From Actinomycetospora sp. TBRC 11914 (lineage in GTDB: Bacteria; Actinomycetota; Actinomycetes; Mycobacteriales; Pseudonocardiaceae), in the NCBI RefSeq assembly GCF_012933465.1, contig NZ_JABBND010000009.1:124001-188000 (forward strand): DNA of 64,000 nt. The letters are read 5' to 3'. Shown here piece after piece: positions 3,733-57,326 of this stretch. A program made the translations under genes and the position numbers. Within the stretch, counting starts at the first letter, position 1. The number at the start of each line of letters is the position of its first letter. The notes below the pieces were generated by a model. It was given only the letters and a program-made list of their open reading frames with translations, was not told the DNA's origin and did not search any database.

Positions 3733-3780
3733 ACGAACGGCCGGTTCGTGACCTTCGAAGGTCATGGACCGGCCGTTCGT
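3733..3780. repeat. 48-bp nested palindrome, family A copy 1
   Basis: Outer arms ACGAACGGCCGGT (3733-3745) and ACCGGCCGTTCGT (3768-3780) pair perfectly over 13 bp. Between them lies a second perfect palindrome, TGACCTTCGAAGGTCA (3749-3764). It begins 20 nt after the glgE stop. There is no T-tract. A sister copy with the same outer arms but a different inner stem is at 24852-24899. Likely a transcript 3'-end hairpin. Confidence 0.85.
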
Positions 3781-3824
3781 GCGTTCGGGGGAGGCGCCCG
3801 CTCACGCCGGGGCCGGGCCACCAC

Positions 3825-3955
3825 GGGCGAACGGCGCCGTCCTCGCATCCAGCGCGAGCAAGGTGCCATTGCCGGCACGAGACGGCGCCGGCCCGCCATG
3901 GGTGAACGGCGCCGTCCTCGCATCCAGCGCGAGCAAGGTGCCATTGCCGGCACGA
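3825..3955. repeat. Tandem 56-bp repeat, family D copies 1 and 2
   Basis: Two nearly identical 56-bp units (3825-3880 and 3900-3955, one difference seen) with a 75-bp period. Each holds the palindrome ACGGCGCCGT near its left end and the inverted pair GTGCC/GGCAC around ATTGC near its right end. A third, diverged copy is at 57271-57326. They fill the glgE-fxsA gap together with the 48-bp palindrome. I see no gene in the 327-nt gap 3713-4039. Confidence 0.85.
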
Positions 3956-4039
3956 CCACGACCGCGACCACGACGGCGGCCGCGGGCACTTTCCCGGCCG
4001 CCCGCGCGTTGGAGAGGGTGAGACACCCTGGAGGTCCCC

Positions 4040-4585
4040 GTGCCCGTCCTGCTCGCCCTGCTGGCCTACGTCGCCCTCGAGATCTGGGTCCTGGTCCTCG
4101 TCGGCCAGGCCGTCGGGTTCCTCGGGCTGCTGGGCCTGCTCGTCGCCTCCGCGCTCGTCGGCGCGTGGGCCCTCAAGCGGGAGGGCCGCCGCTCGGTCGC
4201 CGACCTCGGCCGGGCCGTGCGCTCGGGCCGCCCGGCCGAGGCCGAGGTGGCCGGCGGGATGTACCTCGCGCTCGCGGGGGTCCTGCTCGTCGTGCCGGGC
4301 CTGCTCTCCACCCTCGCCGCGCTGGTCCTGCTGGTGCCCCCGGTCCGCCGCGCCCTCGCCCGCCGGGCCGCGGCGCGGGCGGTCCGCGCGGGCAGCGCGC
4401 GGATGGGTCCGTCGATCACCGTGGTGGGCGCGGGAGCACCCGGCGGGTACGGCCCCCGGGGCCCGGCCGGCCCGCGGGATCCGTGGCACGGAAGGGTCAT
4501 CGAGGGGCACGTCATCGACGCCCCCGCACCCGACGACGACCGTCCGGACGGGGAGGGCCCCGGTCGCGCGCGCCACGGGGGCTGA
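4040..4585 (+). CDS. fxsA: FxsA family membrane protein
   Basis: 181 aa. An N-terminal hydrophobic pair (residues 2-45, ALLAYVALEIWVLVLVG then a Gly/Leu-rich helix) is followed by a short cytoplasmic stretch and a second hydrophobic pair (about 75-105). This layout and the E-I/V-W region match FxsA, a small inner-membrane protein whose E. coli member relieves phage T7 exclusion by F; the cellular role is unknown. The C-terminal ~70 residues are polar and Pro/Gly-rich. GTG start with GGAGG just upstream (4030-4034). It is inserted between glgE and treS, with an 18-nt gap to treS. Confidence 0.8.
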   Translation: MPVLLALLAYVALEIWVLVLVGQAVGFLGLLGLLVASALVGAWALKREGRRSVADLGRAVRSGRPAEAEVAGGMYLALAGVLLVVPGLLSTLAALVLLVPPVRRALARRAAARAVRAGSARMGPSITVVGAGAPGGYGPRGPAGPRDPWHGRVIEGHVIDAPAPDDDRPDGEGPGRARHGG

Positions 4586-4589
4586 CCAC

Positions 4590-4595
4590 TAGCGT
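4590..4595 (+). promoter_or_regulatory. -10-like box for leaderless treS
   Basis: TAGCGT lies 8 nt before the treS ATG at 4604, and there is no Shine-Dalgarno sequence. It overlaps the fxsA-treS gap, so treS may have its own leaderless transcript as well as read-through from fxsA. Confidence 0.4.
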
Positions 4596-4603
4596 GACGC
4601 CTG

Positions 4604-6418
4604 ATGAACGAGGGGATCGGGGCGGTCCGCACTGGCGCGACCGACACCAGCACGACCGGCAACGCCCCCGCGCCACGGGGACCCGAGGAGACCGTGGAAC
4701 CGCTGGTCGAGCCCTCGTCCGACGACTTCCGCAGCGCCCGCCAGCTCCCGGTCGAGGAGGGCTGGTACAAGCGGGCGGTCTTCTACGAGGTGCTGGTCCG
4801 CGCGTTCGCGGACTCCAACCGTGACGGCTTCGGGGACCTGCGCGGCCTCACCGACAAGCTCGACTACCTGGCCTGGCTCGGGGTCGACTGCCTGTGGCTG
4901 CCGCCGTTCTACGACTCCCCGCTGCGCGACGGCGGCTACGACATCCGGGACTACCGCAAGGTGCTCGGCGAGTTCGGCACCGTCGAGGACTTCGTGGAGT
5001 TCCTCGACCAGGCGCACGCGCGGGGCATCCGCGTGATCACCGACCTCGTCATGAACCACACCTCGGACTCCCACCACTGGTTCCAGGAGTCGCGCCGCGA
5101 CCCGGAGGGGCCCTACGGCGACTTCTACGTCTGGTCCGACGACGACACCCGCTGGTCGGAGGCCCGGGTCATCTTCGTCGACACCGAGTCGTCCAACTGG
5201 ACCTACGACACGGTCCGCGGCCAGTTCTACTGGCACCGCTTCTTCTCCCACCAGCCGGACCTGAACTTCGACAACCCGGCCGTGTGCGAGGCGATGATCG
5301 ACGCGCTGCGCTTCTGGCTGGACCTCGGGATCGACGGCTTCCGGCTCGACGCGGTGCCCTACCTCTTCGAGCGCGACGGCACCAACGGCGAGAACCTGCC
5401 CGAGACCCACGCGTTCCTGCGCCGCGTGCGCAAGGTCGTCGAGGACGAGTACCCGGGCCGGGTCCTGCTCGCCGAGGCGAACCAGTGGCCGGCGGACGTC
5501 GTCGAGTACTTCGGCGACGCCGAGGTCGGCGGGGACGAGTGCCACATGGCGTTCCACTTCCCGCTGATGCCACGCATCTTCATGGCGGTGCGGCGCGAGT
5601 CCCGCTTCCCGATCTCGGAGATCCTGGCCCAGACCCCGGAGATCCCCGAGAACGCGCAGTGGGGCATCTTCCTGCGCAACCACGACGAGCTCACGCTCGA
5701 GATGGTCACCGACGACGAGCGCGACTACATGTACGCGGAGTACGCCAAGGACCCGCGCATGAAGGCCAACATCGGCATCCGCCGGCGCCTGGCCCCGCTG
5801 CTCGACAACGACCGCAACCAGCTCGAGCTCTTCACCGCGCTGCTGCTCTCCCTGCCCGGCTCCCCCGTCATCTACTACGGCGACGAGATCGGGATGGGCG
5901 ACAACATCTGGCTGGGCGACCGCGACGGCGTCCGCAGCCCGATGCAGTGGACCCCGGACCGCAACGCCGGGTTCTCCACCTGCGACCCCGGGAGGCTCAA
6001 CCTGCCGGTGGTGATGGACCCGGTCTACGGGTACCAGGCGGTCAATGTCGAAGCCCAGTCGAACTCCACGGCCAGCCTGTTGCACTGGAACCGTAGGATG
6101 ATCGAGATTCGCAAGCAGCACCCGGCGTTCGGGCTCGGCGACTTCCACGAGCTCGGCGGCTCGAACTCCAGTGTGCTGGCCTACGTGCGCGAGTTCGTCG
6201 ACGAGGAGGGCACCCGGGACGTCGTCCTGTGCGTCAACAACATGTCTCGCTTCCCCCAGCCCGTGGAGCTCGACCTCATCGCCTGGAAGGACTGGACCCC
6301 CACCGAGCTGACCGGGGGCGTCCCGTTCCCGGCGATCGGTGAGCTGCCCTACCTGTTGACGCTTCCCGGCCACGGCTTCTACTGGTTCTCGATCCACCCG
6401 GCCCAGGAGCGGGGATGA
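4604..6418 (+). CDS. treS: Maltose alpha-D-glucosyltransferase / trehalose synthase
   Basis: 604 aa, the usual TreS length. GH13_16 enzyme that interconverts trehalose and maltose and so feeds maltose to the kinase encoded next. The GH13 regions are intact: [17 protein letters not shown] at the N-terminus, nucleophile D249 in GFRLDAVPY, acid/base E291 in LLAEANQWP, and D361 in RNHDELTLE. The C-terminal beta domain ends [11 protein letters not shown]. The stop overlaps the maltokinase start by 4 nt (ATGA), which implies translational coupling. Many actinobacteria carry TreS and Mak as neighbours or as one fused protein; here they are separate but overlapping. Confidence 0.97.
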
Positions 6419-7842
6419 CGGGGCCGCAGGGAACGCCGACCGGGACCGCCCCGGCGCTGGAGGCCCTGCTGCCGGGGATGGTCGACTGGCTGCCCACCCA
6501 GCGGTGGTTCGCCGCGAAGGGGCGCGACGTCGCCGGGGTGCGCCTCGTCGGCCACCAGGACGTCACCGCGCCGGACGCCGAGCCCGCGGTCGCGCACGCC
6601 GTGATCGCCGTGGAGTTCGCCGACGGCGGCCCGGAGGACTGGTTCCAGCTGCTGCTCGGGTCGCGGACCCGGGTGTCCGGGGACCTCGAGTACGCGGTGA
6701 TCGGCACGTCCGGGGACCGGACGGTGTACGACGGGCTGGCCGACGGCGAGATCAGCCGGCTGCTGCTGTCGATGATCGTCTCCGACACGTCGGTCGGGTC
6801 GCTGCGCTTCGTCCCGGAGCCGGGCACCGAGCCGCCGATCGTCGGGCCGGGGCGCCCGCTGCTCGGCGAGCAGTCGAACTCGTCGGTCATCTACGGCGAG
6901 CGCGCCATCCTCAAGCTGTTCCGCCGTGCCACCGCCGGCCTGAACCCGGACCTCGAGCTGCACCGGGCCCTGGGCTCGCAGCACTCGCGGGAGGTGGCCC
7001 CGCTGCTCGGGGCGATCGAGGGTGAGCTGTCGGACGGCGCCGGGGGCACCGTCCCGATGACGGTCGCGATGCTGCAGGACTACGCGTCGAACTCCGCCGA
7101 CGGCTGGTCGATGGCCCTGACCAGCGTGCGCGACCTGCTGGCCGAGGGCGACCTGCGTCCCGACGAGGTCGGGGGCGACTTCGCGGGTGAGGCCACCCGG
7201 CTCGGCCGCACGGTGGCCGCGGTGCACACCGAGCTCGCCCGCGCGCTGGGCACGGCCCTCCTCGACGCCGACGGCGTCGCCGCCGTCGCGGACTGGATGC
7301 TCGCCCGGCTCGACCACGCCGCCGAGGCCGTCCCCGAGGTCGCCGAGCGCCGTGCCGCCATCGCCGAGGTGCTCCGCGGCGTCACGTCCGCCGACGGCCT
7401 GCTCGTCCACCGCATCCACGGCGACCTGCACCTCGGCCAGGAGCTGCGCACCCCGCGCGGCTGGCTGGTCATCGACTTCGAGGGCGAGCCCTCGCGGCCG
7501 CTGACCGACCGGGTGCGCCCCGACTCGCCGCTGCGCGACGTGGCCGCGATGCTGCGCTCGTTCGACTACGCCGCGTTTCACCAGCTCGCCGAGTGGGAGA
7601 CCGGCAGCGAGGCCCCGGGCTACCTGCAGCGCCGCGCGCAGGAGTGGGCCGACCGCAACCGGTCCGCGTTCTGCGACGGCTACACCGAGATCGCGGGACA
7701 CGACCCCCGCGCGGACCTCGCGGTGCTGCGGGCCTACGAGCTCGACAAGGCCGTCTACGAGGTGCTCTACGAGACCCGCAACCGGCCGAACTGGTTGCCC
7801 ATCCCGCTCCGCTCGATGGAGCGTCTCCTCCGGAGCGTCTGA
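6415..7842 (+). CDS. mak: Maltokinase (Pep2/Mak)
   Basis: 475 aa, typical for the family. It phosphorylates maltose with ATP to give maltose-1-phosphate, the GlgE substrate. The aminoglycoside-phosphotransferase-like fold shows the catalytic loop HGDLHLGQ and the Mg-binding IDFEGEP about 20 residues later. The N-terminal cap begins [20 protein letters not shown]. It overlaps treS by 4 nt. A small hairpin follows at 7857-7870, then glgB 103 nt downstream. Confidence 0.95.
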
Positions 7843-7856
7843 GCCCGTGTGACCCG

Positions 7857-7870: not shown

Positions 7871-7945
7871 TAGGAGACTCGTACTGCAGTCGAGCGTCTA
7901 GCCCGGACGCTGGACGACACCCCCGATCCCGGAGTCGTACCGCCG

Positions 7946-14379: not shown

Positions 14380-14489
14380 CGAGGGGAACCCTCGTGCGGA
14401 TAGAGCGACCGGATCCTCCCCTCGCGCCGCCCGCCCTCGCACCGCGAGGGGAGGATTCAGCCCACGAGAGCGACCGAGGGTTCCCCTCG
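14380..14489. repeat. Compound inverted repeat between marR and cydDC
   Basis: Hairpin CGAGGG-gaa-CCCTCG (14380-14394), then a 14-bp inverted repeat ATCCTCCCCTCGCG (14413-14426) with CGCGAGGGGAGGAT (14443-14456), then hairpin CGAGGG-ttc-CCCTCG (14475-14489), which is the exact reverse complement of the first. AGAGCGACCG also recurs (14403 and 14467). The right-hand part overlaps the last ~11 codons of cydDC. Probably a two-way terminator. Confidence 0.75.
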
Positions 14490-17400
14490 TGCGGTGTCGA
14501 CGAGCCGGCCGTCCTCGAGGTGCAGGACGCGGTCCACGCGGTCGAGCCCCTCGGGCCGGTGGGTCAGGAGCAGGACGGTCGCCGGGGTGTCGAGCAGGTC
14601 GGCCATCAGCGCCTCCGCGGTCTCGACGTCGAGGCCCTCGGTGGGCTCGTCGAGCACCCGGACCGCGGGGTCGGCGAGCAGGAGCCGGGCCGCCGTGAGA
14701 CGCCGCCGTTCCCCACCGGAGACCGTGTCCGGGCCGATCACGGTGTCCAGCCCGTCCTCGAGCCCGGAGACCCACCCGGCGAGCCGGACCCGGCGCAGCG
14801 CGTCGAGCAGGCGGGCGTCGTCGGCGTCGGGCGCGGCCAGGAGCAGGTTGGCGCGCACGCTCGCGGTGAAGACGTGGTCGTGGTCGCCGAGCAGGCCGAT
14901 CCGGCGCCGGACGTCGTCGCCGGAGAGCTCGCCGAGCGGCACCCCGCCGAGGGTCACGCTCCCCGCCGCCGGGTCGAGCAGCCGCAGCAGCACCGCCGCG
15001 AGGGTCGACTTGCCCGACCCCGACGCGCCGGTCACCGCGACCCGGGCGCCCGCGGGCAGGTCGAGGTCGACGCCCTGCAGCGCCGCCGAGCCCGCCCAGC
15101 CGGCGGTGAGCCCGCTGGCCCGCAGGTCGCTGCCCGCGGGCAGGGGCCGGGGCCGGGCCGGTTCGACGGCGGGTTCCGGGGCCTCGGCGAGCACGGCGAG
15201 CCGGCGCCGGGCCTGACCGCCCCGCACGGCCGCCCGGGCGGCCCCCGGCAGGGCCAGCACCGTCGCGGCCAGGGCGGTCGGGAGGAGGACGACGATCCCG
15301 ACGAGCCCCGGCGCCGCCCCGCGCAGCCCGGCGGCGGCGAGCGCGGCGCCGAGGGTGGCGACGGCCAGCGCGAGGTGGGCGGCGGCGTCGGCGAGTCCCT
15401 CGTGGCGGGCGGCCCGCCGGCGGGCGGCGCCGAGCGCGGCGGCGCGGTCCCGCACGACGGCGAGGGCGACGTCGCGGTCGCGGGCGGCGAGCTCCTCGCG
15501 GGCGGCGAGGGTCTCGCCGACCGCGGCCCCGAGCCGCTCGCCCGCGGTGTCGAGCGCCGTGCCGTCGCGTCGGGCGGCGCGGGCCGCCAGCGCGGGGACG
15601 ACGAGCACCGCCGCGCCGAGCCCGCCGGCGAGCGCGGGCAGCGTCGTCGGGACCGCCGAGAAGGCGACGGCGAGCACCACCGGCACGACGACCGCCGCCA
15701 CGAGCAGCGGCTGCCGGCCCCGGACCAGGCCGTCGAGGCGGGTGTCGACGTCGTCGACCGCGCGGGCGAGCAGCTCGCCCCGCCGCCCGGCGACCGCGCC
15801 CGGGACCCGGTCGACGAGCACGGCGACGAGCGCGCGGCGCCAGCCCGCCACCCGGGCGAGCGCCCCGTCGTGCACCACGAGCCGCTCGAGGTGGCGCAGC
15901 AGCGGCCGCAGGATGGCCGTGGCCCGCACGAGCACGACCGCGATCGAGAGGGTGAGCACCGGGGGCCGGGCGTCGGCGCGCACGATCAGCCAGGTCGAGA
16001 CCGCGGTGAGCAGGAGCCCGGCGAGCACCGCGCCCGCGCCCAGCGCGACCCCGGCCGCCGTCGTGCCCCTGCGGGGCTCCGCGGGCGCCGCGGCGTCCGC
16101 GCTCGGCCGCGGCTCGACGGGCCGCTCGCTCGCGTCGGTGGGCGGGCGCCGCAGGGTGACGACCCGGTCCGCCGCCGCGAGGGCGGCCGGGCGGTGGGCG
16201 ACGAGCAGGACGGCCGCGCCGCGGTCGGCGGCCGCGCGCAGCAGCCCCAGCACCCGCGTCTCGGTGGCGGGGTCGAGGTGGGCGGTGGGCTCGTCGAGGA
16301 GCACCGTCGCGTGCGGCGCGTCGGAGAGGGCGAGCAGGACGCGGGCGAGCGCGAGCCGTTCCCGCTGCCCCGCCGAGACCGAGCCGCCCTCCTCGGCCAG
16401 CGCATCGTCGGGGTCGAGGGGCAGGTCGAGGGCGGCGAGGACGGCCCGCATCCGGGCGCGCGGGACCTCGCCGAGGGCGTCGGCGACGCTGCGGGCGTGC
16501 GGCAGCGTCGGGCGCTGCGGCAGCACGAGCACGGGGTCTCCGACGGCGACGGTGCCCGCGTCGGCCCGGACGGCACCGGAGAGCACCCGCAGCAGCGTCG
16601 TCTTGCCCGCGCCGGACTCCCCGGCCAGCGCGACGAGCTCGCCGGGCGCGACGGCGAGGTGGTCCAGCGCGAGCGCGTCGGCGCGGCGGCCCGGGTAGCG
16701 GACGCGGACACCCGAGGCGCGCGCGCCAGGTGAACGAACGTGGTCGCCGGGACGACCGAATCCGTTCACGTGGTCGGCGACCACGCCGGCCTCGGCCGTG
16801 TCGTGGAACCGCGCACCGACCTCGCGGATCGGGCGGTACGCCTCGGGCGCGAGCAGGATCGCGACGAGCGCCGGCGCCAGCCCGAGCGACCCGTCGACCA
16901 CCCGCAGCCCGGCCGACACCGCGACGAGCCCGACCGACACCGTCGCGACGAGATCGAGCGCCGTCGTCGACAGGAACGCCACCCGCAGCACCGAGCCGGT
17001 CGCGCGCCGGTGGGCCTCCCCGACGCGGGCCACCTCGTCGACCTGCCGCCGCGCCCGGCCGAACAGCCGCAGCGTGGCGAGGCCGGTGACGACGTCGAGC
17101 ACGTGGCCGGCCAGCCGCTCCCCCGCCGCCCACTGCCGGGCCGCGCGGGCCCGCGTCGCCCAGCCGACCAGCGCCGCGAACACCGGCAGCAGCGGCAGGG
17201 TCAGCAGCACGATGAGCGCGGAGGTCGGGTCGGCGACCGCGAGCCCGACCAGGACGAGCGGCGGCAGCACGACGGCGAGGACCAGGGCCGGCAGGTAGGC
17301 GGTGAACCACGCCCGCAGGTCGTCGATCCCGCCGGAGGCGAGCGCGCGCCGCACCCGGGCCCCCGGGTCCCGGCGCTCGGCGTCGGGGTCCCGCGCGTCC

Positions 17401-17687
17401 AGCAGCCGCTCCCGCAGCGGCTCGACCACGCGGTCCGCGGTCCCCGCGGCGACCCGCGGCGCCACGCCCGCGACCAGGGCCCGCACGACGAGGGCCGCGG
17501 CCAGCGCGGCGAGGGTGGCGCGCGGCGACGTGCCGTCCACCAGCGCGGCGACCAGGAGGCCGGCCGCGACGAGGGCGGTGGCGTCGGCGAGGGCCCCGAC
17601 GACGCCGAGCACGACCTGGCCGGCGACCCGCGGCAGCGCCGGACGGGCGAGGCGGAGCAGGCGGGGGTCGACCGGGCCGGCACTCAT
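14457..17687 (-). CDS. cydDC: Fused ABC transporter CydDC, cytochrome bd assembly
   Basis: 1076 aa, two ABC half-transporters in one chain. CydD half: six-helix domain (about 1-305), then an ATPase with Walker A GESGAGKTT (K362), signature SAGQRE and Walker B VLLDEP. CydC half: second membrane domain (about 545-840) and an ATPase with Walker A GASGSGKST (K893), signature SGGERR and VLDEPTEG. The transporter exports cysteine/glutathione (or heme, debated) and is needed for cytochrome bd. Separate in M. tuberculosis but fused in several actinobacteria. It starts in an ATGA overlap with cydB. Residues 306-321 are encoded by a 48-bp palindromic element lying in the CydD linker. Confidence 0.95.
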   Translation of the reverse strand: MSAGPVDPRLLRLARPALPRVAGQVVLGVVGALADATALVAAGLLVAALVDGTSPRATLAALAAALVVRALVAGVAPRVAAGTADRVVEPLRERLLDARDPDAERRDPGARVRRALASGGIDDLRAWFTAYLPALVLAVVLPPLVLVGLAVADPTSALIVLLTLPLLPVFAALVGWATRARAARQWAAGERLAGHVLDVVTGLATLRLFGRARRQVDEVARVGEAHRRATGSVLRVAFLSTTALDLVATVSVGLVAVSAGLRVVDGSLGLAPALVAILLAPEAYRPIREVGARFHDTAEAGVVADHVNGFGRPGDHVRSPGARASGVRVRYPGRRADALALDHLAVAPGELVALAGESGAGKTTLLRVLSGAVRADAGTVAVGDPVLVLPQRPTLPHARSVADALGEVPRARMRAVLAALDLPLDPDDALAEEGGSVSAGQRERLALARVLLALSDAPHATVLLDEPTAHLDPATETRVLGLLRAAADRGAAVLLVAHRPAALAAADRVVTLRRPPTDASERPVEPRPSADAAAPAEPRRGTTAAGVALGAGAVLAGLLLTAVSTWLIVRADARPPVLTLSIAVVLVRATAILRPLLRHLERLVVHDGALARVAGWRRALVAVLVDRVPGAVAGRRGELLARAVDDVDTRLDGLVRGRQPLLVAAVVVPVVLAVAFSAVPTTLPALAGGLGAAVLVVPALAARAARRDGTALDTAGERLGAAVGETLAAREELAARDRDVALAVVRDRAAALGAARRRAARHEGLADAAAHLALAVATLGAALAAAGLRGAAPGLVGIVVLLPTALAATVLALPGAARAAVRGGQARRRLAVLAEAPEPAVEPARPRPLPAGSDLRASGLTAGWAGSAALQGVDLDLPAGARVAVTGASGSGKSTLAAVLLRLLDPAAGSVTLGGVPLGELSGDDVRRRIGLLGDHDHVFTASVRANLLLAAPDADDARLLDALRRVRLAGWVSGLEDGLDTVIGPDTVSGGERRRLTAARLLLADPAVRVLDEPTEGLDVETAEALMADLLDTPATVLLLTHRPEGLDRVDRVLHLEDGRLVDTARGEPSVALVG
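16726..16773. repeat. 48-bp nested palindrome, family B copy 1, inside cydDC
   Basis: Outer arms CCAGGTGAACG (16726-16736) and CGTTCACGTGG (16763-16773) pair at 10 of 11 positions; the inner stem is GGTCG/CGACC (16742-16757). It matches the intergenic copy at 21596-21643 in length, outer arms and inner stem. It is in frame and encodes HVNGFGRPGDHVRS (minus strand) between the CydD membrane domain and its ATPase. Confidence 0.85.
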
Positions 17688-20663: not shown

Positions 20664-21587
20664 ATGGCGTCGGTGTGGTTGACGGGGCTCGCCCTCGTGC
20701 TCGCCGGGCCCGTGCCTGCCCTGCTCGCGCGCGCCCGGTGGCCCCGCGCCGTGCCCCGGGCCGCCATCGTCCTCTGGCAGGCCGTCGCGGTCGCCGCCGT
20801 CCTCGCCGCCGTCGGGAGCGCGCTGGCCGCCCCCGAGGCCCTGCTGACCCTCCTGACCCACCCCCAGGAGCGCACCGGCGTGCCGCTGGTGATCGCCGTC
20901 GGGGTCGCCGCCCTGCTCGCGTCGCTGATCGTCGCCCGACTGCTCGGCGTGCTCGTGCTGCTCGCCGTCCGCACCCGCGTGCGCCGGGCCCGCCACCGCG
21001 ACATGGTCGACCTGCTCGCGCGGGCCGAGCAGAACGACGCCGTCGGGTCGCTGCGCTCCGGGACGGTGCTCCGCGTGCTCGACGGAGCCGTGCCGTTCGC
21101 CTACTGCGTGCCGGGCCGGGTCGGGCGCGAGGGCCGGGTGGTGGTCACCGGCGCGACGCTGGACACCCTCTGCCCGGACGAGCTCAGCGCGGTCATCGCC
21201 CACGAGCAGGCCCACCTCGCCGCGCGCCACGACCTCGTCCGCGAGGGCTTCACCGCCCTGCACAAGGCCTTCCCCGTGGTGGCGCGCAGCCGCGAGGCCC
21301 GCGACGCGGTCGCGCTGCTGCTGGAGATGCTCGCCGACGACGCCGGGCGCCGGCGCCACGGCGACGACGCCATGGCCGGCGCGCTGGACGCGTTCGCCTC
21401 GAGCGCCGCGCCGGGCGAGGGCGACGACGTGGTGCAGCGCCGCGACCGCATCCGCGCCCACGTGCGCGGCACGCCGGCCCTCGCCGTCGGGACCTACCTC
21501 GCCGCGGTCGCGCTCGTCGTCGTCCCGACCGTCACGATCGTCATCCCGTGGCTGGTCGACGCCCTCCCGGTGGTGGGGGTCCGGTAG
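20664..21587 (+). CDS. M56 family membrane metallopeptidase (BlaR1/HtpX-like)
   Basis: 307 aa. Hydrophobic segments near residues 5-20, 30-55 and 70-100, then a cytoplasmic protease domain with HEQAHLAARHDLV (HExxH) and a nearby downstream Glu/Asp region, and a final C-terminal helix (YLAAVALVVVPTVTIVIPWLV). It lacks the extracellular penicillin-binding sensor of BlaR1. Paired with BlaI it may cleave the repressor on a membrane signal; that is inferred from context only. A 48-bp palindrome begins 9 nt after its stop. Confidence 0.85.
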   Translation: MASVWLTGLALVLAGPVPALLARARWPRAVPRAAIVLWQAVAVAAVLAAVGSALAAPEALLTLLTHPQERTGVPLVIAVGVAALLASLIVARLLGVLVLLAVRTRVRRARHRDMVDLLARAEQNDAVGSLRSGTVLRVLDGAVPFAYCVPGRVGREGRVVVTGATLDTLCPDELSAVIAHEQAHLAARHDLVREGFTALHKAFPVVARSREARDAVALLLEMLADDAGRRRHGDDAMAGALDAFASSAAPGEGDDVVQRRDRIRAHVRGTPALAVGTYLAAVALVVVPTVTIVIPWLVDALPVVGVR

Positions 21588-21595
21588 GCCGGAGG

Positions 21596-21643
21596 CCATG
21601 TGAACGAATCTGGTCGTCCCGACGACCACGTCCGTTCACATGG
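21596..21643. repeat. 48-bp nested palindrome, family B copy 2
   Basis: Perfect 11-bp outer arms CCATGTGAACG (21596-21606) and CGTTCACATGG (21633-21643); perfect 7-bp inner stem GGTCGTC-cc-GACGACC (21612-21627). It begins 9 nt past the M56 stop. Same length and arms as the copy inside cydDC at 16726-16773. Confidence 0.9.
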
Positions 21644-23493: not shown

Positions 23494-24825
23494 GTGCAGG
23501 AAATCCGCGACGCCATCCTCGCCGACGAGACCGCCGCGCTGGCCGGGATCACCGTGCCCGAGTCCTACCGGGGCATCACCGTCCACGCCGACGAGGCCGA
23601 GATGTTCGCCGGCATGGCCTCGAAGGAGAAGGACCCGCGCAAGTCGCTGCACCTCGACGAGGTGCCGACGCCCGAGCCCGCCGCCGGTGAGGCGCTGGTC
23701 GCCGTCATGGCCAGCGCGATCAACTACAACACCGTCTGGACCTCGATCTTCGAGCCGGTCTCGACCTTCGGCTTCCTCAAGCGCTACGGGCGCATCTCGC
23801 CGCTGGCCAAGCGCCACGACCTGCCCTACCACGTGGTGGGCTCGGACCTCGCCGGCGTCGTCCTCAAGACCGGCGAGGGCGTGCAGATGTGGAAGCCGGG
23901 CGACAAGGTCGTCGCGCACTGTCTGTCGGTCGAGCTCGAGAGCCCCGACGGGCACGACGACACGATGATGGACCCCGAGCAGCGCATCTGGGGCTTCGAG
24001 ACCAACTTCGGCGGCCTGGCTGACGTGGCGCTGGTCAAGACCAACCAGCTGATGCCGAAGCCGGACCACCTGACCTGGGAGGAGGCCGCCTCCCCCGGGC
24101 TGGTCAACTCCACCGCCTACCGGCAGCTGGTCAGCCACAACGGCGCGAACATGACGCAGGGCGACGTCGTGCTGATCTGGGGCGCCTCGGGCGGTCTCGG
24201 GTCCTACGCCACCCAGTTCGCCCTCAACGGCGGCGCGACCCCGGTCTGCGTCGTGTCCTCGCCCGAGAAGGCCGAGCTATGCCGCAAGATGGGCGCCGAG
24301 CTGATCATCGACCGCTCCGCCGAGGGCTACAAGTTCTGGTCCGACCCCGAGACCCAGGACCCCCGCGAGTGGAAGCGCTTCGGCTCGAGGATCCGCGAGC
24401 TGACCGGCGGTGACGACCCCGACATCGTCTTCGAGCACCCGGGCCGCGAGACGTTCGGCGCCTCGGTCTACGTCGCCAAGCGCGGCGGCACGATCGTCAC
24501 CTGCGCCTCGACGTCGGGCTTCATGCACCAGTACGACAACCGCTACCTGTGGATGAACCTCAAGCGGATCATCGGGTCGCACTTCGCGAACTACAAGGAG
24601 GCCTACCTGGCGAACCGCCTGGTGGCCCAGGGGAAGATCCATCCCACGGTCTCGAAGACCTACCCGCTCGCCGAGACCGGTGAGGCGGCCAACGACGTCC
24701 ACCACAACAGCCACCAGGGCAAGGTCGGCGTGCTGTGCCTCGCGCCCGAGGAGGGCCTCGGCGTCACGAACCCGGAGCTGCGCGAGCAGCACCTCGAGGC
24801 CATCAACCGCTTCCGCGGCGAGTAG
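23494..24825 (+). CDS. ccr: Crotonyl-CoA carboxylase/reductase
   Basis: 443 aa medium-chain reductase that converts crotonyl-CoA, CO2 and NADPH to (2S)-ethylmalonyl-CoA. It has the Ccr N-terminus (SYRGITVHADEAEMFAGM), SAINYNTVW, WGFETNFGGLADV, the nucleotide-binding GASGGLGSYATQFALNGGA, and the insert DPREWKRFGSRIREL. GTG 23494 is chosen because GGAGG (23481-23485) sits 8 nt away; a TTG at 23488 is too close. It supplies C2 assimilation and ethylmalonyl-CoA extender units. A family-A 48-bp palindrome starts 26 nt after the stop. Confidence 0.96.
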   Translation: MQEIRDAILADETAALAGITVPESYRGITVHADEAEMFAGMASKEKDPRKSLHLDEVPTPEPAAGEALVAVMASAINYNTVWTSIFEPVSTFGFLKRYGRISPLAKRHDLPYHVVGSDLAGVVLKTGEGVQMWKPGDKVVAHCLSVELESPDGHDDTMMDPEQRIWGFETNFGGLADVALVKTNQLMPKPDHLTWEEAASPGLVNSTAYRQLVSHNGANMTQGDVVLIWGASGGLGSYATQFALNGGATPVCVVSSPEKAELCRKMGAELIIDRSAEGYKFWSDPETQDPREWKRFGSRIRELTGGDDPDIVFEHPGRETFGASVYVAKRGGTIVTCASTSGFMHQYDNRYLWMNLKRIIGSHFANYKEAYLANRLVAQGKIHPTVSKTYPLAETGEAANDVHHNSHQGKVGVLCLAPEEGLGVTNPELREQHLEAINRFRGE

Positions 24826-24851: not shown

Positions 24852-24899
24852 ACGAACGGCCGGTTCGGCACCCACGAGGGTGACGGGCCGGCCGTTCGT
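24852..24899. repeat. 48-bp nested palindrome, family A copy 2
   Basis: Outer arms ACGAACGGCCGG (24852-24863) and CCGGCCGTTCGT (24888-24899), identical to copy 1 at 3733. The inner stem is CACCC-acga-GGGTG, different from copy 1 but still self-complementary. It lies after ccr. Confidence 0.9.
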
Positions 24900-26430: not shown

Positions 26431-26470
26431 GTGAGCACTAAGTGCCGCTATACCGACATTTAGTGCTCAC
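26431..26470. repeat. 40-bp nested palindrome, family F
   Basis: Perfect 11-bp arms GTGAGCACTAA (26431-26441) and TTAGTGCTCAC (26460-26470) enclose a weaker inner pair TGCCG/CGACA. It starts 15 nt after the stop of the minus-strand dehydrogenase. It is more AT-rich than its surroundings. Confidence 0.8.
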
Positions 26471-26485: not shown

Positions 26486-28264
26486 CTAGCTGTAGTCCCG
26501 GAACCCGTGCCCGGTCTTGCGGCCGAGGCGGCCCGCCGTCACCAGGTGCTCGAGCAGCGGCGCGGGCGCGAACCCGGGCACGCGGAACTCCTGGTAGAGC
26601 GAGCGCTCGATCGCGAGCGACACGTCCAGGCCCACGACGTCGAGCAGCGCGAACGGCCCCATCGGCAGCCCGCAGCCGTTCTTCATCGCCGAGTCGATGT
26701 CGTCGACGGTCGCGTAGTGCGCCTCGAGCATCGCCACCGAGTCGTTGAGGTAGGGGAAGAGCAGCGCGTTGACGATGAACCCGGCGCGGTCGCCGCAGAG
26801 CACCGGCGCCTTCCGGATCTTCGCGCACAGGTCGCGCACGGTCGCCGTGACCTCGGGCGACGTGGTGATCGGCGAGACGACCTCGACCAGCTTCATCACC
26901 GCGGCCGGGTTGAAGAAGTGCATCCCGATGACGTCCTCGGGCCGCGAGGTGGCGGCGGCACACTCCACGACGGGCAGCGACGAGGTGGTCGTCGCGAGGA
27001 TCGTGCCGGGCTTGCAGACCTCGTCGAGGGCCGAGAACGCCGCCTGCTTGACCCCGAGGTCCTCGGCGATGGCCTCGACCACGAGGTCGCACTCGGCCAG
27101 GCCGGAGAAGTCGACGGTCGTGGTGATCCGGCCCAGCGTGGCGTCGCGGTCGGCCTCGGAGAGCTTGCCCTTGACGACGGCCTTCTCCAGCGACTTGCGC
27201 ACCGCGGCGACCGCGCCGTCACCCTTGGACTCCGAGCGGCCGCGCACGACGACGTGGTAGCCCGCCTTGGCGAACACCTCGGTGATGCCGGTGGCCATCG
27301 TGCCGGTGCCGACCACGCCGACCCGGCTGACCGGCCGCAGCGCGGAGTCGTCGGCGCCGGGCGGCGGCGGGGTGAGGCCGTCGGCCACCACCTCCGAGGA
27401 CCCGGGCTCGGCGTAGGTGTAGAAGCCCCGCCCGGTCTTCCGGCCGAGCAGGCCCGCCGTGATCATCTGCTTGAGGACCGGGGCCGGCGCGTGGCGCTGG
27501 TTGCGCGACTGCCGGTACATCTCCTCGAGGATCTCGTACGCGGTGTCGAGGCCGATGAGGTCCATCAGCGCGAGCGGGCCCATCGGGTAGCCGCAGCCGA
27601 ACTTCATCGCGGCGTCGAGGTCCTCGCGGCCGGCGTAGTGGGACTCGAACATGCCCACGGCCTGGTTGAGGTAGGTGAACAGCAGCTGGTTGGCGATGAA
27701 GCCGGCGCGGTCACCGCAGACGACCGGCGACTTCCCCAGCCGCACCGCGAGCTCGCGCACGTCCTCGACGACCTCGGGCTCGGTCACCACGGTGCGCACC
27801 AGCTCGACCAGGGCCTGGACCGGCGCCGGGTTGAAGAAGTGCATCCCGACGACGCGGCCGGGCCGCTCGGTGCGCACCGAGAGCTCGGTGATCGAGAGGG
27901 ACGAGGTGTTCGACGCGAAGATCGTGTCCGGCCCGCAGATGCCGTCGAGGGCCGTGAACACCTGCGCCTTGAGCTCGAGACGCTCGGGCACCGCCTCGAC
28001 GACGAGCGCCACGTCGGCGAGGTCGGTCAGGTCGGTCGTCACGCGGACGCGCTCGAGCAGCGCCGTGCGGTCGGCCTCGTCGAGCTTGCCGCGGGAGACG
28101 GCCCGCGCCGTCGAGTTCTCGACGTGCTCCCGGCCGTGGGCGGCCGCGGCCTCGTCGACCTCGACCGCGACGACCTCGATGCCCGCGCGGGCGAACACCT
28201 CGACGATGCCCGCCCCCATCGTGCCCAGACCGACCACACCCACCCGGGCGAACTCGCGCGCCAC
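26486..28264 (-). CDS. Tandem 3-hydroxyacyl-CoA dehydrogenase
   Basis: 592 aa made of two full 3HCDH units. Unit 1 (1-285): VGVVGLGTMGAGIVEVFARAG, SNTSSLSITEL, GMHFFNPAPV, and catalytic-domain DRAGFIANQLLFTYLN with GRKTGRGFYTY. Unit 2 (about 305-592): VGVVGTGTMATGITEVFAKAG, TTTSSLPVVEC, GMHFFNPAAV, DRAGFIVNALLFPYLN, GRKTGHGFRDYS. The Glu of GxGxMGxGI becomes Ala in unit 2 (GTMATG). Likely oxidises or reduces 3-hydroxybutyryl-CoA and longer acyl-CoAs, and could supply crotonyl-CoA precursor to ccr. No hydratase domain. GTG start. Confidence 0.9.
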   Translation of the reverse strand: MAREFARVGVVGLGTMGAGIVEVFARAGIEVVAVEVDEAAAAHGREHVENSTARAVSRGKLDEADRTALLERVRVTTDLTDLADVALVVEAVPERLELKAQVFTALDGICGPDTIFASNTSSLSITELSVRTERPGRVVGMHFFNPAPVQALVELVRTVVTEPEVVEDVRELAVRLGKSPVVCGDRAGFIANQLLFTYLNQAVGMFESHYAGREDLDAAMKFGCGYPMGPLALMDLIGLDTAYEILEEMYRQSRNQRHAPAPVLKQMITAGLLGRKTGRGFYTYAEPGSSEVVADGLTPPPPGADDSALRPVSRVGVVGTGTMATGITEVFAKAGYHVVVRGRSESKGDGAVAAVRKSLEKAVVKGKLSEADRDATLGRITTTVDFSGLAECDLVVEAIAEDLGVKQAAFSALDEVCKPGTILATTTSSLPVVECAAATSRPEDVIGMHFFNPAAVMKLVEVVSPITTSPEVTATVRDLCAKIRKAPVLCGDRAGFIVNALLFPYLNDSVAMLEAHYATVDDIDSAMKNGCGLPMGPFALLDVVGLDVSLAIERSLYQEFRVPGFAPAPLLEHLVTAGRLGRKTGHGFRDYS

Positions 28265-42085: not shown

Positions 42086-42209
42086 CGAGCGAAGGGCACC
42101 GTCGCTCGTTCTATCCGCCCACGGGCGCCCATCGCCGGAATCCCGGTCGGCCCGCTGTGGTGACCGAAGGGCACCGTCGCTCGATCCAGCCGATCGAAGG
42201 TGCCCTTCG
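42086..42209. repeat. Family C repeats after pduO
   Basis: CGAAGGGCACCGTCGCTCG occurs twice (42090-42108 and 42165-42183). The first copy is a hairpin by itself (CGAGCGA/TCGCTCG, 42086-42108). The second is the left side of a nested palindrome: outer arms CGAAGGGCACC (42165-42175) and GGTGCCCTTCG (42199-42209), inner pair TCGATC/GATCGA (42181-42197). It sits between convergent pduO and DUF2550, so it may end both transcripts. Confidence 0.8.
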
Positions 42210-53398: not shown

Positions 53399-53485
53399 GG
53401 TGGTTGACCTCACTCCGATCGGGATGGACCGACGGATCGGCGCCCCCGGAGTGGGACGACACCGTCGATCCGGAACCGGGGTTCG

Positions 53486-53491
53486 AGGTTA
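53486..53491 (-). promoter_or_regulatory. -10-like box of glyA
   Basis: TAACCT, minus strand, about 88 nt before the glyA start. The GC-rich leader can fold, but I cannot match it to a known riboswitch class. Confidence 0.3.
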
Positions 53492-53544
53492 CCGGTCCCC
53501 CGGGTCGGGCCGAGGGTCGATGGTGACCCGTCACACCTCCCGCG

Positions 53545-54555
53545 TCACCAGTCCGCGATGGTCAGCGAGGTGTCCGGGCGCGGGCGGTCGTCGAGGCCAC
53601 GGGCCAGGTAGTCCCAGGCCGCGAGCCCGATCATCGCGCCGTTGTCGGTGGACCAGCGCAGCGGCGGCAGGCACAGCGACACCCCGGCCTCGTCGCACAG
53701 CCGCCCGGCCGCCGCCCGCAGCTGGGGGCTGGCCGCGACCCCGCCGACGACGACGAGGCAGCGGCTCGGGTAGCGCTCGAGCGCCTTGCGGCACTTGGCG
53801 ACGAGCACGTCGAGGCAGGCGTCCACGAACGAGGCGGCGACGTCGGCGTGCGGGTGGTCGGGGTTCGCCGCGAGGAAGCGCGACACCGACGACTTCAGCC
53901 CGGAGAAGGAGAAGTCGAGCTCCAGGTCCCGGGCCGGCCGCGGGAACGCGACGTCGGCCGTGCCCTCCTTCGCCAGCCGGTCGATGGCCGGCCCGCCGGG
54001 GTAGGGCAGCCCGAGCATGCGGGCGACCTTGTCGTAGGCCTCCCCCACCGAGTCGTCACGGGTCGAGCCGACCAGCTCGACCTCGCCCGGCCCGGCGAGG
54101 TGCGCGAGCAGCGTGTGCCCACCGGAGACCAGCAGCACCATCGCCGGGTACTCCACGCGGCGCTCGTCGAGGTCGGCGCTGCGCAGGTGCCCGCGCAGGT
54201 GGTTGACCCCGTACACCGGCAGGCCCCACCCGTCGCCGAGCCCGACGGCGCTGTTGGTCCCCACCACGAGCGACCCGATGAGGCCCGGCCCGCGGGTGAC
54301 GCCGATGGCGGTGAGGTCGGCGGGGCGCAGGTCGGCGTCGGTGAGGACCTTCCGGACCGTCGGGAGGATCGCGTCGACGTGCGCCCGGCTCGCCATCTCG
54401 GGGTAGACGCCGCCGTAGCGGTCGTGCAGCTCGACCTGGGAGGCGACGGCGGCCGCCACCACCTCGCCGCCGGGACGCACCACCGCGACGCCGGTGTCGT
54501 CGCACGAGGTCTCGATGCCGAGCATGATCCCGTCGTCGGGAAGCACCGCGGTCAT
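53545..54555 (-). CDS. tsaD: tRNA N6-threonylcarbamoyladenosine transferase TsaD
   Basis: 336 aa. ASKHA-fold enzyme that puts the threonylcarbamoyl group on A37 of ANN-decoding tRNAs. LGIETSCDDTGVAVV, RGPGLIGSL, metal ligands in NHLRGHL, FSFSGLKSSV, and the C-terminal STDNGAM are intact. Its ATG overlaps the stop of the tsaB-tsaC fusion (ATGA). Confidence 0.97.
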   Translation of the reverse strand: MTAVLPDDGIMLGIETSCDDTGVAVVRPGGEVVAAAVASQVELHDRYGGVYPEMASRAHVDAILPTVRKVLTDADLRPADLTAIGVTRGPGLIGSLVVGTNSAVGLGDGWGLPVYGVNHLRGHLRSADLDERRVEYPAMVLLVSGGHTLLAHLAGPGEVELVGSTRDDSVGEAYDKVARMLGLPYPGGPAIDRLAKEGTADVAFPRPARDLELDFSFSGLKSSVSRFLAANPDHPHADVAASFVDACLDVLVAKCRKALERYPSRCLVVVGGVAASPQLRAAAGRLCDEAGVSLCLPPLRWSTDNGAMIGLAAWDYLARGLDDRPRPDTSLTIADW

Positions 54556-55796
54556 TGGTGGAGCACCCTCTCGATCTCCTCCGCCGGGACCGCGCCCTCG
54601 CGCTCGATCCGAGGCGTGTCCAGGTGGCAGTTCACGACCGTCGACGGCACCCCGGAGCGCACGCCCCCGTCGACGACGGCGTCCGGGCGTCCCGCGAGCT
54701 GGTCCAGGATCGGCCCGGGCGCCTGGGCCGTCGGCTCGCCGTGGGCGTTCGCGCTGGTCACGAGCAGGGCACCCACGTCGGAGAGCAGCGCGCGCAGGTC
54801 AGGGTCGGAGGGCACGCGCACCCCGATCTCCTCGCGGCCCGCGAGCCACGCCGGCGCCACGGCGGGGTCGACGCCCATCGCGACGGTGATCGGCCCCGGG
54901 GAGAACGCGGCGAGCAGCCGGCGGGCCTGCTCGGTGACCTGCACGCCGAGGGCGGGGAGCTCGTCGGGGGTGGCGACCATGATCGGCAGCTCGCGGGTGC
55001 GCGGCCGGTCCTTGAGGGCGAACAGCGCGTCGATCGCGTCGGGACGCCGCGGGTGCACGGCGAGCCCGTAGACGGTGTCGGTCGGCACCAGCGCCACCCC
55101 GCCGTCGAGCAGCGCCTCCCGCGCCGCGGTGAAGGCGTCGCCGCGGAACCGGACCGACGACTCGGTCAGCGGGGCCGCGCTGACCACCGCCGGCTCGTGG
55201 TCGCCGGCGCGCAGGCGGACGGTGAGGGCGTCGACGTCGGGGGCGTCGAGCCCGGTGTCCCGCGCGGCGAGCCCGTGCTCGGCGAGCAGGGCCGCCGCCG
55301 GCCCGCGCCGCGCGCCCGCCAGCGCCACCGTCACCCCGGACCCCTCGCCGATCCGCTCGGCGAGCTCCTTGACCACCACGTCGAGCTCGCCGTGGCGCAG
55401 CACCACGTGGCCGTCCGCGCCGGTCAGCGACGCGTAGACCGCGGCGCCGCCCGCGGGGCGCAGAACCAGGGCCGGGAGGTGGCCGGTCTGCGTGGTCAGC
55501 AGCGAGAGCGAGTCGATCGCGACGACCGGGACGCCCCGGGCGAACGCCACGGCGTTGACGTAGGCGATGCCGGCCCGCACCGAGGCGAGGTTGCCGGGCC
55601 CGACGTCGACGGCGAGCCGGTCCAGGTCGGTGACCGACCGCCCGGCGTCGCGGATGACCCCGCCGGCCAGCACCCCGACGTCGACGAAGCCGGGGTCGCC
55701 GCGGTCCGCGCTCGCCCGGGCGACGACGCGGTCGTCGTCGAGCAGCGCGGCGCCGTAGACCCGCGAGGAGGTCTCGACGGCGAGCGTGAGGGTCAT
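54552..55796 (-). CDS. tsaB: TsaB-TsaC fusion protein for tRNA t6A synthesis
   Basis: 414 aa, two domains. Residues 1 to about 215 are TsaB (AVETSSRVYGAALLDDDRVV, VDVGPGNLASVRAGIAYVNAVAF), the partner that dimerises with TsaD. Residues about 219-414 are a complete Sua5/TsaC threonylcarbamoyl-AMP synthase (LVPTDTVYGLAVH, KDRPRTRELPIMV with the K-x-R pair, FSPGPITVAMG, LLVTSANAHGE with S-A-N). TsaB is more often alone or fused to RimI. The frame is unbroken across the join. It overlaps tsaD by 4 nt and lies 42 nt after tsaE. Confidence 0.92.
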   Translation of the reverse strand: MTLTLAVETSSRVYGAALLDDDRVVARASADRGDPGFVDVGVLAGGVIRDAGRSVTDLDRLAVDVGPGNLASVRAGIAYVNAVAFARGVPVVAIDSLSLLTTQTGHLPALVLRPAGGAAVYASLTGADGHVVLRHGELDVVVKELAERIGEGSGVTVALAGARRGPAAALLAEHGLAARDTGLDAPDVDALTVRLRAGDHEPAVVSAAPLTESSVRFRGDAFTAAREALLDGGVALVPTDTVYGLAVHPRRPDAIDALFALKDRPRTRELPIMVATPDELPALGVQVTEQARRLLAAFSPGPITVAMGVDPAVAPAWLAGREEIGVRVPSDPDLRALLSDVGALLVTSANAHGEPTAQAPGPILDQLAGRPDAVVDGGVRSGVPSTVVNCHLDTPRIEREGAVPAEEIERVLHQ

Positions 55797-55838
55797 GCCT
55801 GCTCCGTGCGTGCTCGTGCCGGGCTGTGCTGGGTGTGC

Positions 55839-56333
55839 TCAGGGGGTGGTGCTGCTGGGCGCGGGCGCGGCCAGCGCGTCGAGCGCCGGCGCCCACCGGG
55901 CGCTGCCGCGCACCGTGATGCGCCGGGCCGCGGCGTCGTCCGGGTCGGCGGCCAGGTGCATCCGCAGCGGGTCGACGAACTCGCCGGCCACCAGGTCGCC
56001 CCACTCGACGAGCGCGATGACCTCGTCGAGGTACTCGTCGAGGCCGAGGTCGCGGAACTCGGTGAGGTCGTCGAGGCGGTAGGTGTCGACGTGCAGGACC
56101 CGCGGCCCCGGGGTCGCGTAGAACTGCGCGAGCGAGAACGTCGGGCTGGACACGGCCGCCTGCGAGCCGAGCGCCGCGACGAGCGCCGACACGAACGTCG
56201 TCTTGCCCGCGGCGAGCTCGCCGGTCAGCAGCACCGCGTCGCCCGCCCGGAGGTGGGGCGCCAGCGCCGCCGCGACCCGCGCGGTGCCCTCGGGTCCGTC
56301 CGCGTGCAGCACCGTCTCCACCTGCTCGTCCAT
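55839..56333 (-). CDS. tsaE: tRNA t6A ATPase TsaE
   Basis: 164 aa. P-loop GELAAGKTTF (K44), SSPTFSLAQFY, VLHVDTYRLDD and VALVEWGD are the TsaE signatures. ATPase that drives turnover of the TsaB-TsaD complex. ATG 56333 is preceded by GGGGAGG. 38 nt separate it from the tsaC stop. Confidence 0.95.
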   Translation of the reverse strand: MDEQVETVLHADGPEGTARVAAALAPHLRAGDAVLLTGELAAGKTTFVSALVAALGSQAAVSSPTFSLAQFYATPGPRVLHVDTYRLDDLTEFRDLGLDEYLDEVIALVEWGDLVAGEFVDPLRMHLAADPDDAAARRITVRGSARWAPALDALAAPAPSSTTP

Positions 56334-56371
56334 CGCCTCCCCATGATAGGAGGCCCGCCGCGGCCGCCCGG

Positions 56372-57016
56372 TCACGCGGTCGCCGGGGTGCGGCCCAGCA
56401 CCTCGGCGATCGCCGCGGCGCTCACCGCGCCCTCGCGCCGGATGACGGGCTCGGGGCCGGTGAGGTCGACGATGGTGGACCCGGCGTCGGCCGCGAGCGG
56501 CCCGCCGTCGAGGTAGACGTCCACGGCCTCGCCGAGCTGGGCGTACGCGTCGCCGCAGTCGTGCGGGACCGCGCCGCTGTCCGCGTTCGCGCCGGTGATG
56601 GCCATCGGGCCGCACTCCCGCAGCAGCTCCAGCGCGACGGGGTGCAGCGGCATCCGGAGCACGACGGTGCCCCGGGTGCGCCCGAGGTCCCACGCCAGCG
56701 AGGGCGCGTGCGGCAGGACGAGCGAGAGGCCGCCGGGCCAGAACGCCTCGACGAGCTCCCGCGCGGTGCTCGGCACGACCGCGACCAGGCCGTCGATCGT
56801 CGACCAGCTCCCGACCAGCACCGGGACGGGCGTCTCCGGGCCCCGGCCCTTGGCGGCGAGCAGCGCGCGGACCGCGGCCTGGTCGAACGCGTCGGCGCCG
56901 ACGCCGTAGGAGGTGTCCGTCGGCACCACGACGAGCCGGCCCGCCCGGACGGCGGCCGCCGCGGCGGCGAGCCCCGCGGCCCGGGTGTCGGGGACGCGGC
57001 AGTCGAAGGTCGTCAC
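56372..57016 (-). CDS. tsaC: L-threonylcarbamoyladenylate synthase (Sua5/TsaC)
   Basis: 214 aa from GTG 57016 (leaderless by TACCCT 7 nt upstream). VVPTDTSYGVGADAF, AKGRGPETPVPVLV with K-x-R, and FWPGGLSLVLPH fit the family. The usual S-x-N loop is replaced by TGANADSG, so the Ser of the K-R-S-N set is Gly here. It follows prmC as in M. tuberculosis, so this is the ancestral copy; the fused domain in the next-but-one gene is a second one. Confidence 0.92.
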   Translation of the reverse strand: MTTFDCRVPDTRAAGLAAAAAAVRAGRLVVVPTDTSYGVGADAFDQAAVRALLAAKGRGPETPVPVLVGSWSTIDGLVAVVPSTARELVEAFWPGGLSLVLPHAPSLAWDLGRTRGTVVLRMPLHPVALELLRECGPMAITGANADSGAVPHDCGDAYAQLGEAVDVYLDGGPLAADAGSTIVDLTGPEPVIRREGAVSAAAIAEVLGRTPATA

Positions 57017-57023
57017 GCGGGCG

Positions 57024-57029
57024 AGGGTA
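57024..57029 (-). promoter_or_regulatory. -10-like box for leaderless tsaC
   Basis: TACCCT on the minus strand, 7 nt before the GTG at 57016. Confidence 0.45.
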
Positions 57030-57091
57030 GGCCGCGCGGTCCGTGCGCCGCGGCCGGGCGGGCGAGGGGCGCGGGCGGCGGCGCTGGCCGG

Positions 57092-57251
57092 CCCGACGAG
57101 GGGCACACAGTGCAGCCTTGCGGGCGTCCGGACCTACCCCATGTGCCCGTGATCATGGCCGCGCACGCGAGCGGCAGTGGCCCGCCCGACGAGGGGCACA
57201 CCACCCAGGCCCGCTGGCTCTTGGGCCTGCCCCACGTGCTCGTGATCATGG
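57092..57251. repeat. Two tandem 67-bp palindromic repeats, family E
   Basis: Units 57092-57158 and 57185-57251, 93-bp period. Both begin CCCGACGAGGGGCACAC and end GTGATCATGG. Outer pairing is GGGCACA/TGTGCCC in unit 1 and partly decayed in unit 2; unit 2 has an inner stem CAGGCCC/GGGCCTG. They fill the 339-nt prmC-tsaC gap with the family D copy below. No gene seen there. Confidence 0.8.
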
Positions 57252-57270
57252 GCGGCCGGCCCGGCGCGAT

Positions 57271-57326
57271 GCGCGAACGGCGCCGTTCTCCCGCTGTACG
57301 CCAGGAATGTGCCATTGCTCGCACGG
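57271..57326. repeat. 56-bp repeat, family D copy 3
   Basis: Matches the 3825-3955 repeats at both ends (GCGAACGGCGCCGT and TGCCATTGC..GCACG) with a diverged centre and the same 56-bp length. It lies 29 nt beyond the prmC stop. Confidence 0.75.

Follow-up and report, generated by a model that had tools for sequence, protein, structure and literature searches.

Palindromes at gene 3' ends in Actinomycetospora: one family keeps its sites and changes its sequence with the species

The window analysed here, a 64,000-nucleotide stretch (74% GC) at positions C63:124001-188000 of the 6.52-Mb genome of Actinomycetospora sp. TBRC 11914 (G000), carries four 48-bp palindromes, and the question is what such elements are and how dozens of copies come to resemble one another within a genome. 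We compared the palindromes of G000 with those of A. endophytica TBRC 5722 (G006) and of further genomes (other G numbers). On balance, we judge it probable that they are palindromes like the repetitive extragenic palindromes (REPs), kept at gene 3' ends as hairpins that likely act as bidirectional terminators, and that family A is homogenised in place by copying between its sites. The positions and folds given for the four in an earlier note on this DNA were both verified, and their number is far above chance. The palindromes concerned, listed without strand, are as follows.

3733..3780, family A palindrome, 48 bp, between a tandem gene pair; the stop of the glgE-like open reading frame (ORF) 86-3712, with Pfam GlgE domains, lies 20 nt upstream
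24852..24899, family A palindrome, 48 bp; lies 26 nt past the stop of ORF 23494-24825
21596..21643, family B palindrome; begins 8 nt past the TAG stop of ORF 20664-21587
16726..16773, family B palindrome; within the minus-strand ABC-transporter ORF 14457-17687
26431..26470, GTGA...TCAC palindrome of exactly 40 bp; the stop of ORF 26486-28264 is 15 nt away

Sequence and position of families A and B between species

Family A has the outer arms ACGAACGGCCGG...CCGGCCGTTCGT. Exact arms around a variable centre N{10,40} (34-64 bp allowed) were found at 27 places in G000, all of them 48 bp, and arms with up to three mismatches at fixed length at 37 places of 48 bp; reversed-pattern controls gave 0. 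There are at least seven 47-bp relatives in G000, at least six of them from a scan with the covariance model R1, which scored the best 150 of 12084 candidates, making the count for A a lower bound. Removal of two chance matches (L111, L113) from 46 candidates left 44 copies. The outer arms are nearly invariant, the inner stem and loop vary, and certain loops (TTCGAA, TTCTTC, ATCGAT) recur between copies. Family B has the arms CATGTGAACG...CGTTCACATG, found exactly, around N{18,48}, at 46 places (control 0); the 40-bp core is present at 45 of these, and the remaining match is an unrelated 39-bp palindrome. The covariance model R2 gave at least 134 strand matches, about 67 places, again a lower bound (best 150 of 15223 candidates scored); from 70 candidates, nine that were not 48 bp were removed (including L029 and L107, of 47 bp, and weak chance matches), leaving 61. 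The prediction that further copies exist outside the window was thus borne out for both families. The exact 48-bp length claimed for the elements holds for A; in B only 20 of 52 distinct copies form the outermost pair, the conserved core being 46 bp and its GTGA...TCAC heart 40 bp.

In A. endophytica, a strict pattern finds 31 CGAACGG...CCGTTCG palindromes, of which 29 measure 48 bp when the outer bases are counted; R1 matches all 29 fetched loci of this species, with no score below 35.6 bits. Flank matching paired 14 of the 44 G000 copies of A with counterparts among 29 A. endophytica loci. Locus L009, whose flanks align far from the element, was excluded and the site after ORF 23494-24825, called ccr in the earlier note, was included, giving 14 site pairs; 15 A. 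endophytica copies have no counterpart among the G000 loci compared. At all 14 sites, aligned flanks enclose the A. endophytica copy, at least one of them being aligned to within 40 nt of it (both at 10 sites), and flank identity is mostly 83-94%, with one pair at 76%. Four pairs (L002, L007, L069, L073) have only one well-aligned flank, and L007 has a second palindrome nearby.

Despite this conservation of position, orthologous A elements are no more alike (0.783) than non-orthologous pairs taken across the two species (0.784), and shuffled pairings of the 14 sites gave a mean at least as high in 3254 of 5000 trials. Within each genome, likeness at the same sites is 0.884 (G000) and 0.859 (A. 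endophytica), and for 13 of the 14 G000 elements the ortholog is a poorer match than the mean G000 copy, though by a small margin for some (L005, L010). Family B behaves differently: at seven sites its orthologs are 0.878 alike versus 0.796 for cross pairs (4 of 5000 permutations). Thus, at the compared sites, A has kept its position and been rewritten alike within each genome, whereas B follows ordinary descent.

The two species differ in dialect at particular pairs of the stem. In symmetrised counts, pair 11 is G:C in G000 (72 of 74) and C:G in A. endophytica (56 of 58). Pair 18 is C-C or G-G in 8 of the 37 G000 copies, as would be expected if only one half of the element had been overwritten. 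The dialects are not merely a search effect, because the split persists when the centre is left free and one arm pattern, CGAACGG...CCGTTCG, is used for both species (32 places in G000, 31 in A. endophytica): 29 of the 32 G000 places are known A copies, 27 of which have CCGG inside both arms, versus none of the 29 A. endophytica 48-bp copies.

The wider genus shows position and sequence parting in a similar manner. A palindrome lies 11-26 nt past the ccr stop in eight genomes (G000, G006, G010, G017, G005, G013, G002, G009), with outer arms near CGAACGG/CCGTTCG, differing inner stems and, in the seven measured (all except G010), lengths of 36-53 bp; the ccr gap of ten more distant congeners has no element of the CGAACGG type. 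By eye, about five of these ten (L130, L134, L136, L137, L138) have another palindrome, GGACGGGTG...CACCCGTCC in that gap, and its right half appears conserved in other congeners. At the glgE 3' end, six genomes carry a CGAACGG- or CGAGCGG-type element and G006 has a GTGA-type palindrome instead. In a comparison of six species, likeness between the glgE and ccr elements of one species (0.51) exceeds that between orthologs (0.30; label permutation 80 of 5000). Site 16726 has strong palindromes in G006 and in G002, that of G002 with another stem, and by eye imperfect ones in G017, G009 and G013 and a decayed one in G005. Site 21596 has a degraded B element in G006, and none was seen there in G010, G017, G005, G013, G002 or G009; B sites are therefore not all old.

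The exact A arms occur in one of 18 genomes of the genus, none of the 17 congeners having them. The shorter CGAACGG...CCGTTCG pattern was searched in six Actinomycetospora genomes, each of which has 26-72 matches, and in 144 other genomes of the family, 140 of which have 0-18, with up to 8 in reversed controls. The other four, from other genera of the family (G030, G126, G096 and G021), show outbursts of 148, 129, 40 and 32 matches. A further family near GACAGGAAAGCGTCGTTGCTGTCA...TGACAGCAACGACGCTTTCCTGTC, 53-63 bp long, stands at gene ends in joined regions at G005:10791 and 102957 and G002:26825 and 219265, and also in G009 and G013. Matches to the B arms number 46 in G000, 29 in G006 and 10 in G010 among the 18 genomes; the remaining congeners have 0-6, unrelated among the matches listed. 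Over 84,980 species genomes, a collection that may omit records of the window's own genome, the full B pattern occurs in 18 stretches, all of them belonging to A. endophytica or to a single Actinomycetospora metagenome-assembled genome.

Gene ends, pairing and the GTGA-40 set

Placement was assessed on genes called by a codon-usage script trained on the window, with rough starts and with stops exact for the chosen frame. The 44 copies of A in G000 fall into convergent (23), tandem (15) and divergent (2) gaps, with 3 genic and 1 unplaced; the 61 copies of B fall into 36 convergent, 19 tandem and 2 divergent gaps, with 4 genic. Counting intergenic copies with both neighbours called (40 of A, 57 of B), divergent gaps are avoided relative to their share of 31% of intergenic bases in a 228-kb yardstick stretch (P = 1e-4 for A, 2e-7 for B). 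The stop nearest to A is at a median of 19 nt, and all 38 are within 50 nt, versus 37% under random placement in non-divergent gaps; 37 of the 38 elements start 0-46 nt downstream of the stop and one is overlapped by it, by 19 nt. Among 82 coding sides of B, 42 terminate at the element's own TGA (bases 6-8) and 13 at a TAG 8 nt upstream of it. The earlier note had placed the family just after gene 3' ends, and both the gap counts and the stop distances uphold a strong genome-wide bias; the copy at 16726-16773 departs from it, lying inside a gene. The ORF that contains it scores as an ABC transporter with two ATPase matches, and the three plus-strand ORFs overlapping the region have no Pfam match at 1e-5. 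As for the other neighbours, the ccr ORF has zinc dehydrogenase domains, ORF 26486-28264 encodes a 3-hydroxyacyl-CoA dehydrogenase on the minus strand, and the gene preceding 21596, labelled M56 in the earlier note, matches Peptidase_M48.

The inner stems change on both sides at once more often than expected. Both-sided cell changes number 11 in the A copies of G000 (5.1 in shuffles) and 15 in those of A. endophytica (7.8), each above 500 of 500 shuffles, and 26 in B (17.4; above 496 of 500), the test of B using 53 of the 61 copies, with some doublet members and the most decayed copies omitted. They also exceed those of all slid structures within each genome. Pair/type counts are beyond the shuffles for A of G000 only (6 and 5 of 500). 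The claim that inner stems keep pairing while their sequence changes therefore agrees with the both-sided changes, the controls being mixed.

The elements form a stable hairpin soon after the stop and have no U tail. Such hairpins have been described as I-shaped terminators, which lie within 50 bp of stops in mycobacteria and are disputed (PMC12288462). At 24 tandem sites in the two species, bases 3-9 past the stem contain more T downstream (1.50) than upstream (0.88; P = 0.03; motif P = 0.05), and convergent flanks resemble downstream sides (1.55). Together with the 3'-end placement and the both-sided stem changes, this fits the earlier suggestion of a multi-family RNA 3'-end element, and we infer that the elements are probably 3'-end hairpins acting as bidirectional terminators.

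Family B belongs to a broader set of GTGA...TCAC palindromes. In about 1.1 Mb from five genomes, 31 such palindromes were found (30-59 bp stretches with at least 75% complementary arm pairs), 24 of them exactly 40 bp (7 each in G000 and G006, 6 in G002, 3 in G005, 1 in G017), with widely different inner stems. The fixed length may be a simple outcome of descent with pairing kept, because a one-sided insertion or deletion would break the stem. Most B copies are single; the exceptions include six inverted doublets.

L016, L021, L100, L102, L103 and L104, about 1470-1730 in each: inverted B doublets, 77-85 bp apart, folding with their flanks to -116 to -131 kcal/mol

Short hairpins of 4-5 bp often stand beside B copies, as seen by eye. 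At one B site (L092:1538-1585 versus L184) G000 has CGCTGGGACG as the asymmetric centre and A. endophytica has CGTCCCAGCG, as though the palindrome had flipped in place. Elsewhere (L075:2248-3339), two B copies 1044 bp apart flank a minus-strand ORF of 329 aa whose stop is inside one copy; as a lead for a mobilising enzyme, it is presumably unlike a transposase.

Among the related layouts that the earlier note had joined to these families, 26431-26470 shares the GTGA-40 set with B, and those at 42165, 14380 and 57092 proved to be other palindromes, outside A and B. The one at 14380-14489, found also at G000 C63:103675, is a further repeated type, CGAGGGGAACCCTCG, with a long loop and about 51 bp, present in G000, G006, G005, G002 and G009. 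At 57092-57251, a unit with CCCGACGAGGGGCACAC and GTGATCATGG stands in two tandem copies. Palindromes ending in TGATCA were found in G002, G005 and G006. In an Rfam scan of the window at gathering score the palindromes had no match, and a known RNA family was ruled out as their identity; the sole match is an L31-Actinobacteria ribosomal protein leader at 59696-59740 on the minus strand.

Copying, insertion or selection

The reading that we prefer combines retention at gene ends with exchange between sites. Hairpins at 3' ends would serve as U-poor (I-shaped) terminators, acting in both directions between convergent genes, and B would additionally provide stop codons. Non-reciprocal copying between dispersed A copies, by ectopic gene conversion or by replication template switching at hairpins, would overwrite one or both arms of an element; selection for pairing would then retain the copies that fold, and A would be homogenised in each genome while remaining at its ancestral sites.

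Several observations weigh against this. Repeats of 48 bp are short for conversion by RecA pathways. The ccr element is slightly nearer to its ortholog (0.85) than to the mean G000 copy (0.83), and the likeness of glgE and ccr elements is low in two of the six species (0.22 in G017, 0.10 in G002). Three of the 32 exact-arm matches in G000 were not identified, and the R1 scan passed over at least one 47-bp copy (L003:1429, 41 bits), so that other-dialect copies in G000 could escape it. Pair/type counts are within the shuffle range for the A copies of A. endophytica (147 and 114 of 500) and for B (241 and 368 of 500). When right arms are exchanged at random among the 14 ortholog pairs, 27.9 of the 32 double changes remain (maximum 36), and cross-species pairing therefore mostly reflects shared dialect. 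Finally, the T enrichment past the stem is weak.

As to what might do the copying, we can offer only tentatively a dedicated or replication-linked process that recognises hairpins and copies the locally dominant arm from site to site, homing-like, with no net insertion and no known transposase; dozens of unlinked hairpins at gene ends would then change jointly.

The strongest competitor, which we nevertheless consider unlikely, is a species-specific active short palindrome recently inserted after stop codons by an enzyme acting in trans. Such mobility would suit the confinement of exact A arms to one genome of the genus, the abundance of B in three, the loops recurring between copies and the six B doublets that form long REPIN-like hairpins. 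However, all 14 compared A sites are shared between aligned flanks and the ccr site is occupied in eight genomes, a coincidence that makes independent insertion unlikely unless old palindromes were targeted. Of the transposase and recombinase families, only Y1/RAYT (PF01797) was searched for; it had no match in 7 genomes, whereas 5 of 14 control genomes were positive. RAYT mobilisation was rejected on this result, and the earlier idea of a short palindrome mobilised in trans loses further ground to the ordinary descent of B at seven sites and the overwriting in place of the 14 shared A sites.

Parallel selection is less probable again: a trans-acting factor that binds the stem would have shifted its preference in each lineage, the sites following by point mutation and compensation. 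Nearly invariant outer arms around a variable inner stem and loop, and some covariation, speak for it, but it requires an identical C:G to G:C swap at pair 11 almost everywhere, and B in the same genomes lacks such turnover at the compared sites. Operators or nucleoid-protein sites, with the dyad read as double-stranded DNA, seem very improbable; a fixed-length palindrome would suit a dimeric protein, but location after stops, avoidance of divergent gaps and pairing-preserving stem changes would be unexpected.

DNA uptake sequences (DUS) occur mostly singly, and DUS with species dialects, their inverted pairs doubling as terminators, were rejected as the identity of the palindromes and can hardly be credited here, since single arms are missing: 55 of 56 matches to the 14-mer arm lie within known palindromes.

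Comparison with known systems

Species dialects at many sites and terminator-associated inverted pairs are nonetheless a likeness to the DUS of Neisseriaceae (PMC3630211), from which our elements differ in having arms almost only as palindromes. The nearest relatives in form are the REPs of the GTAG and CGTC superfamilies and the bacterial interspersed mosaic elements (BIMEs). REPs are units of 20-40 bp (stems of 8-9 bp in CGTC) with an unpaired tag, lie within 20 bp of 3' ends and, in the GTAG group, often supply TAG stops (PMC3733652). Our palindromes resemble them in their many dispersed copies in convergent or unidirectional gaps adjoining 3' ends, some intragenic; in stops supplied by the element (TAG in GTAG REPs, its own TGA in B); and in inverted dimers that fold into larger structures (PMC3733652). 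They also lie mostly outside genes, as high-copy palindromes near 3' ends in convergent and unidirectional gaps, genic copies numbering 3 among the 44 of A and 4 among the 61 of B. Unlike REPs as described in PMC3733652, the units span 40-48 bp (47-48 bp in A; 46 bp for the B core, the GTGA heart alone having 40 bp) with stems of about 20 bp, no such tag was seen and no Y1 transposase was found in the 7 genomes searched. No GTAG or CGTC tag was found on A, whose symmetrised flank consensus in G000 begins G-C-G, and B has no constant tag by eye, CGTC adjoining some copies. The B doublets recall REPINs, the RAYT-mobilised REP pairs of PMC3116915, in forming one long hairpin; unlike these, B copies are mostly single and PF01797 had no match in the 7 genomes searched. 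The I-shaped terminators of mycobacteria offer a similar strong hairpin near the stop, but are a structural class, whereas here sequence families recur genome-wide with species dialects (PMC12288462).

The main text of PMC3733652 contains no mention of Actinobacteria, Streptomyces or Mycobacter, and we found no earlier report on extragenic palindromes with terminators in Actinobacteria, on their concerted evolution or on palindromes of Actinomycetospora. Evolution of REP-like palindromes through gene conversion was reportedly raised as a question in the title of a 1988 review by Higgins et al. Because the sites are orthologous here, insertion can be separated from rewriting in place, with B as a built-in control at the compared sites.

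That REP-like hairpins, which are probably terminators, stand at gene 3' ends is the ordinary part of these results; the part worth following is the in-place rewriting of family A, for which B serves as a control. In the GTGA-40 set, stop codons are incorporated in the hairpin in a fixed register. If the elements do terminate transcription, dozens of terminators within one genus would be changing sequence in concert.

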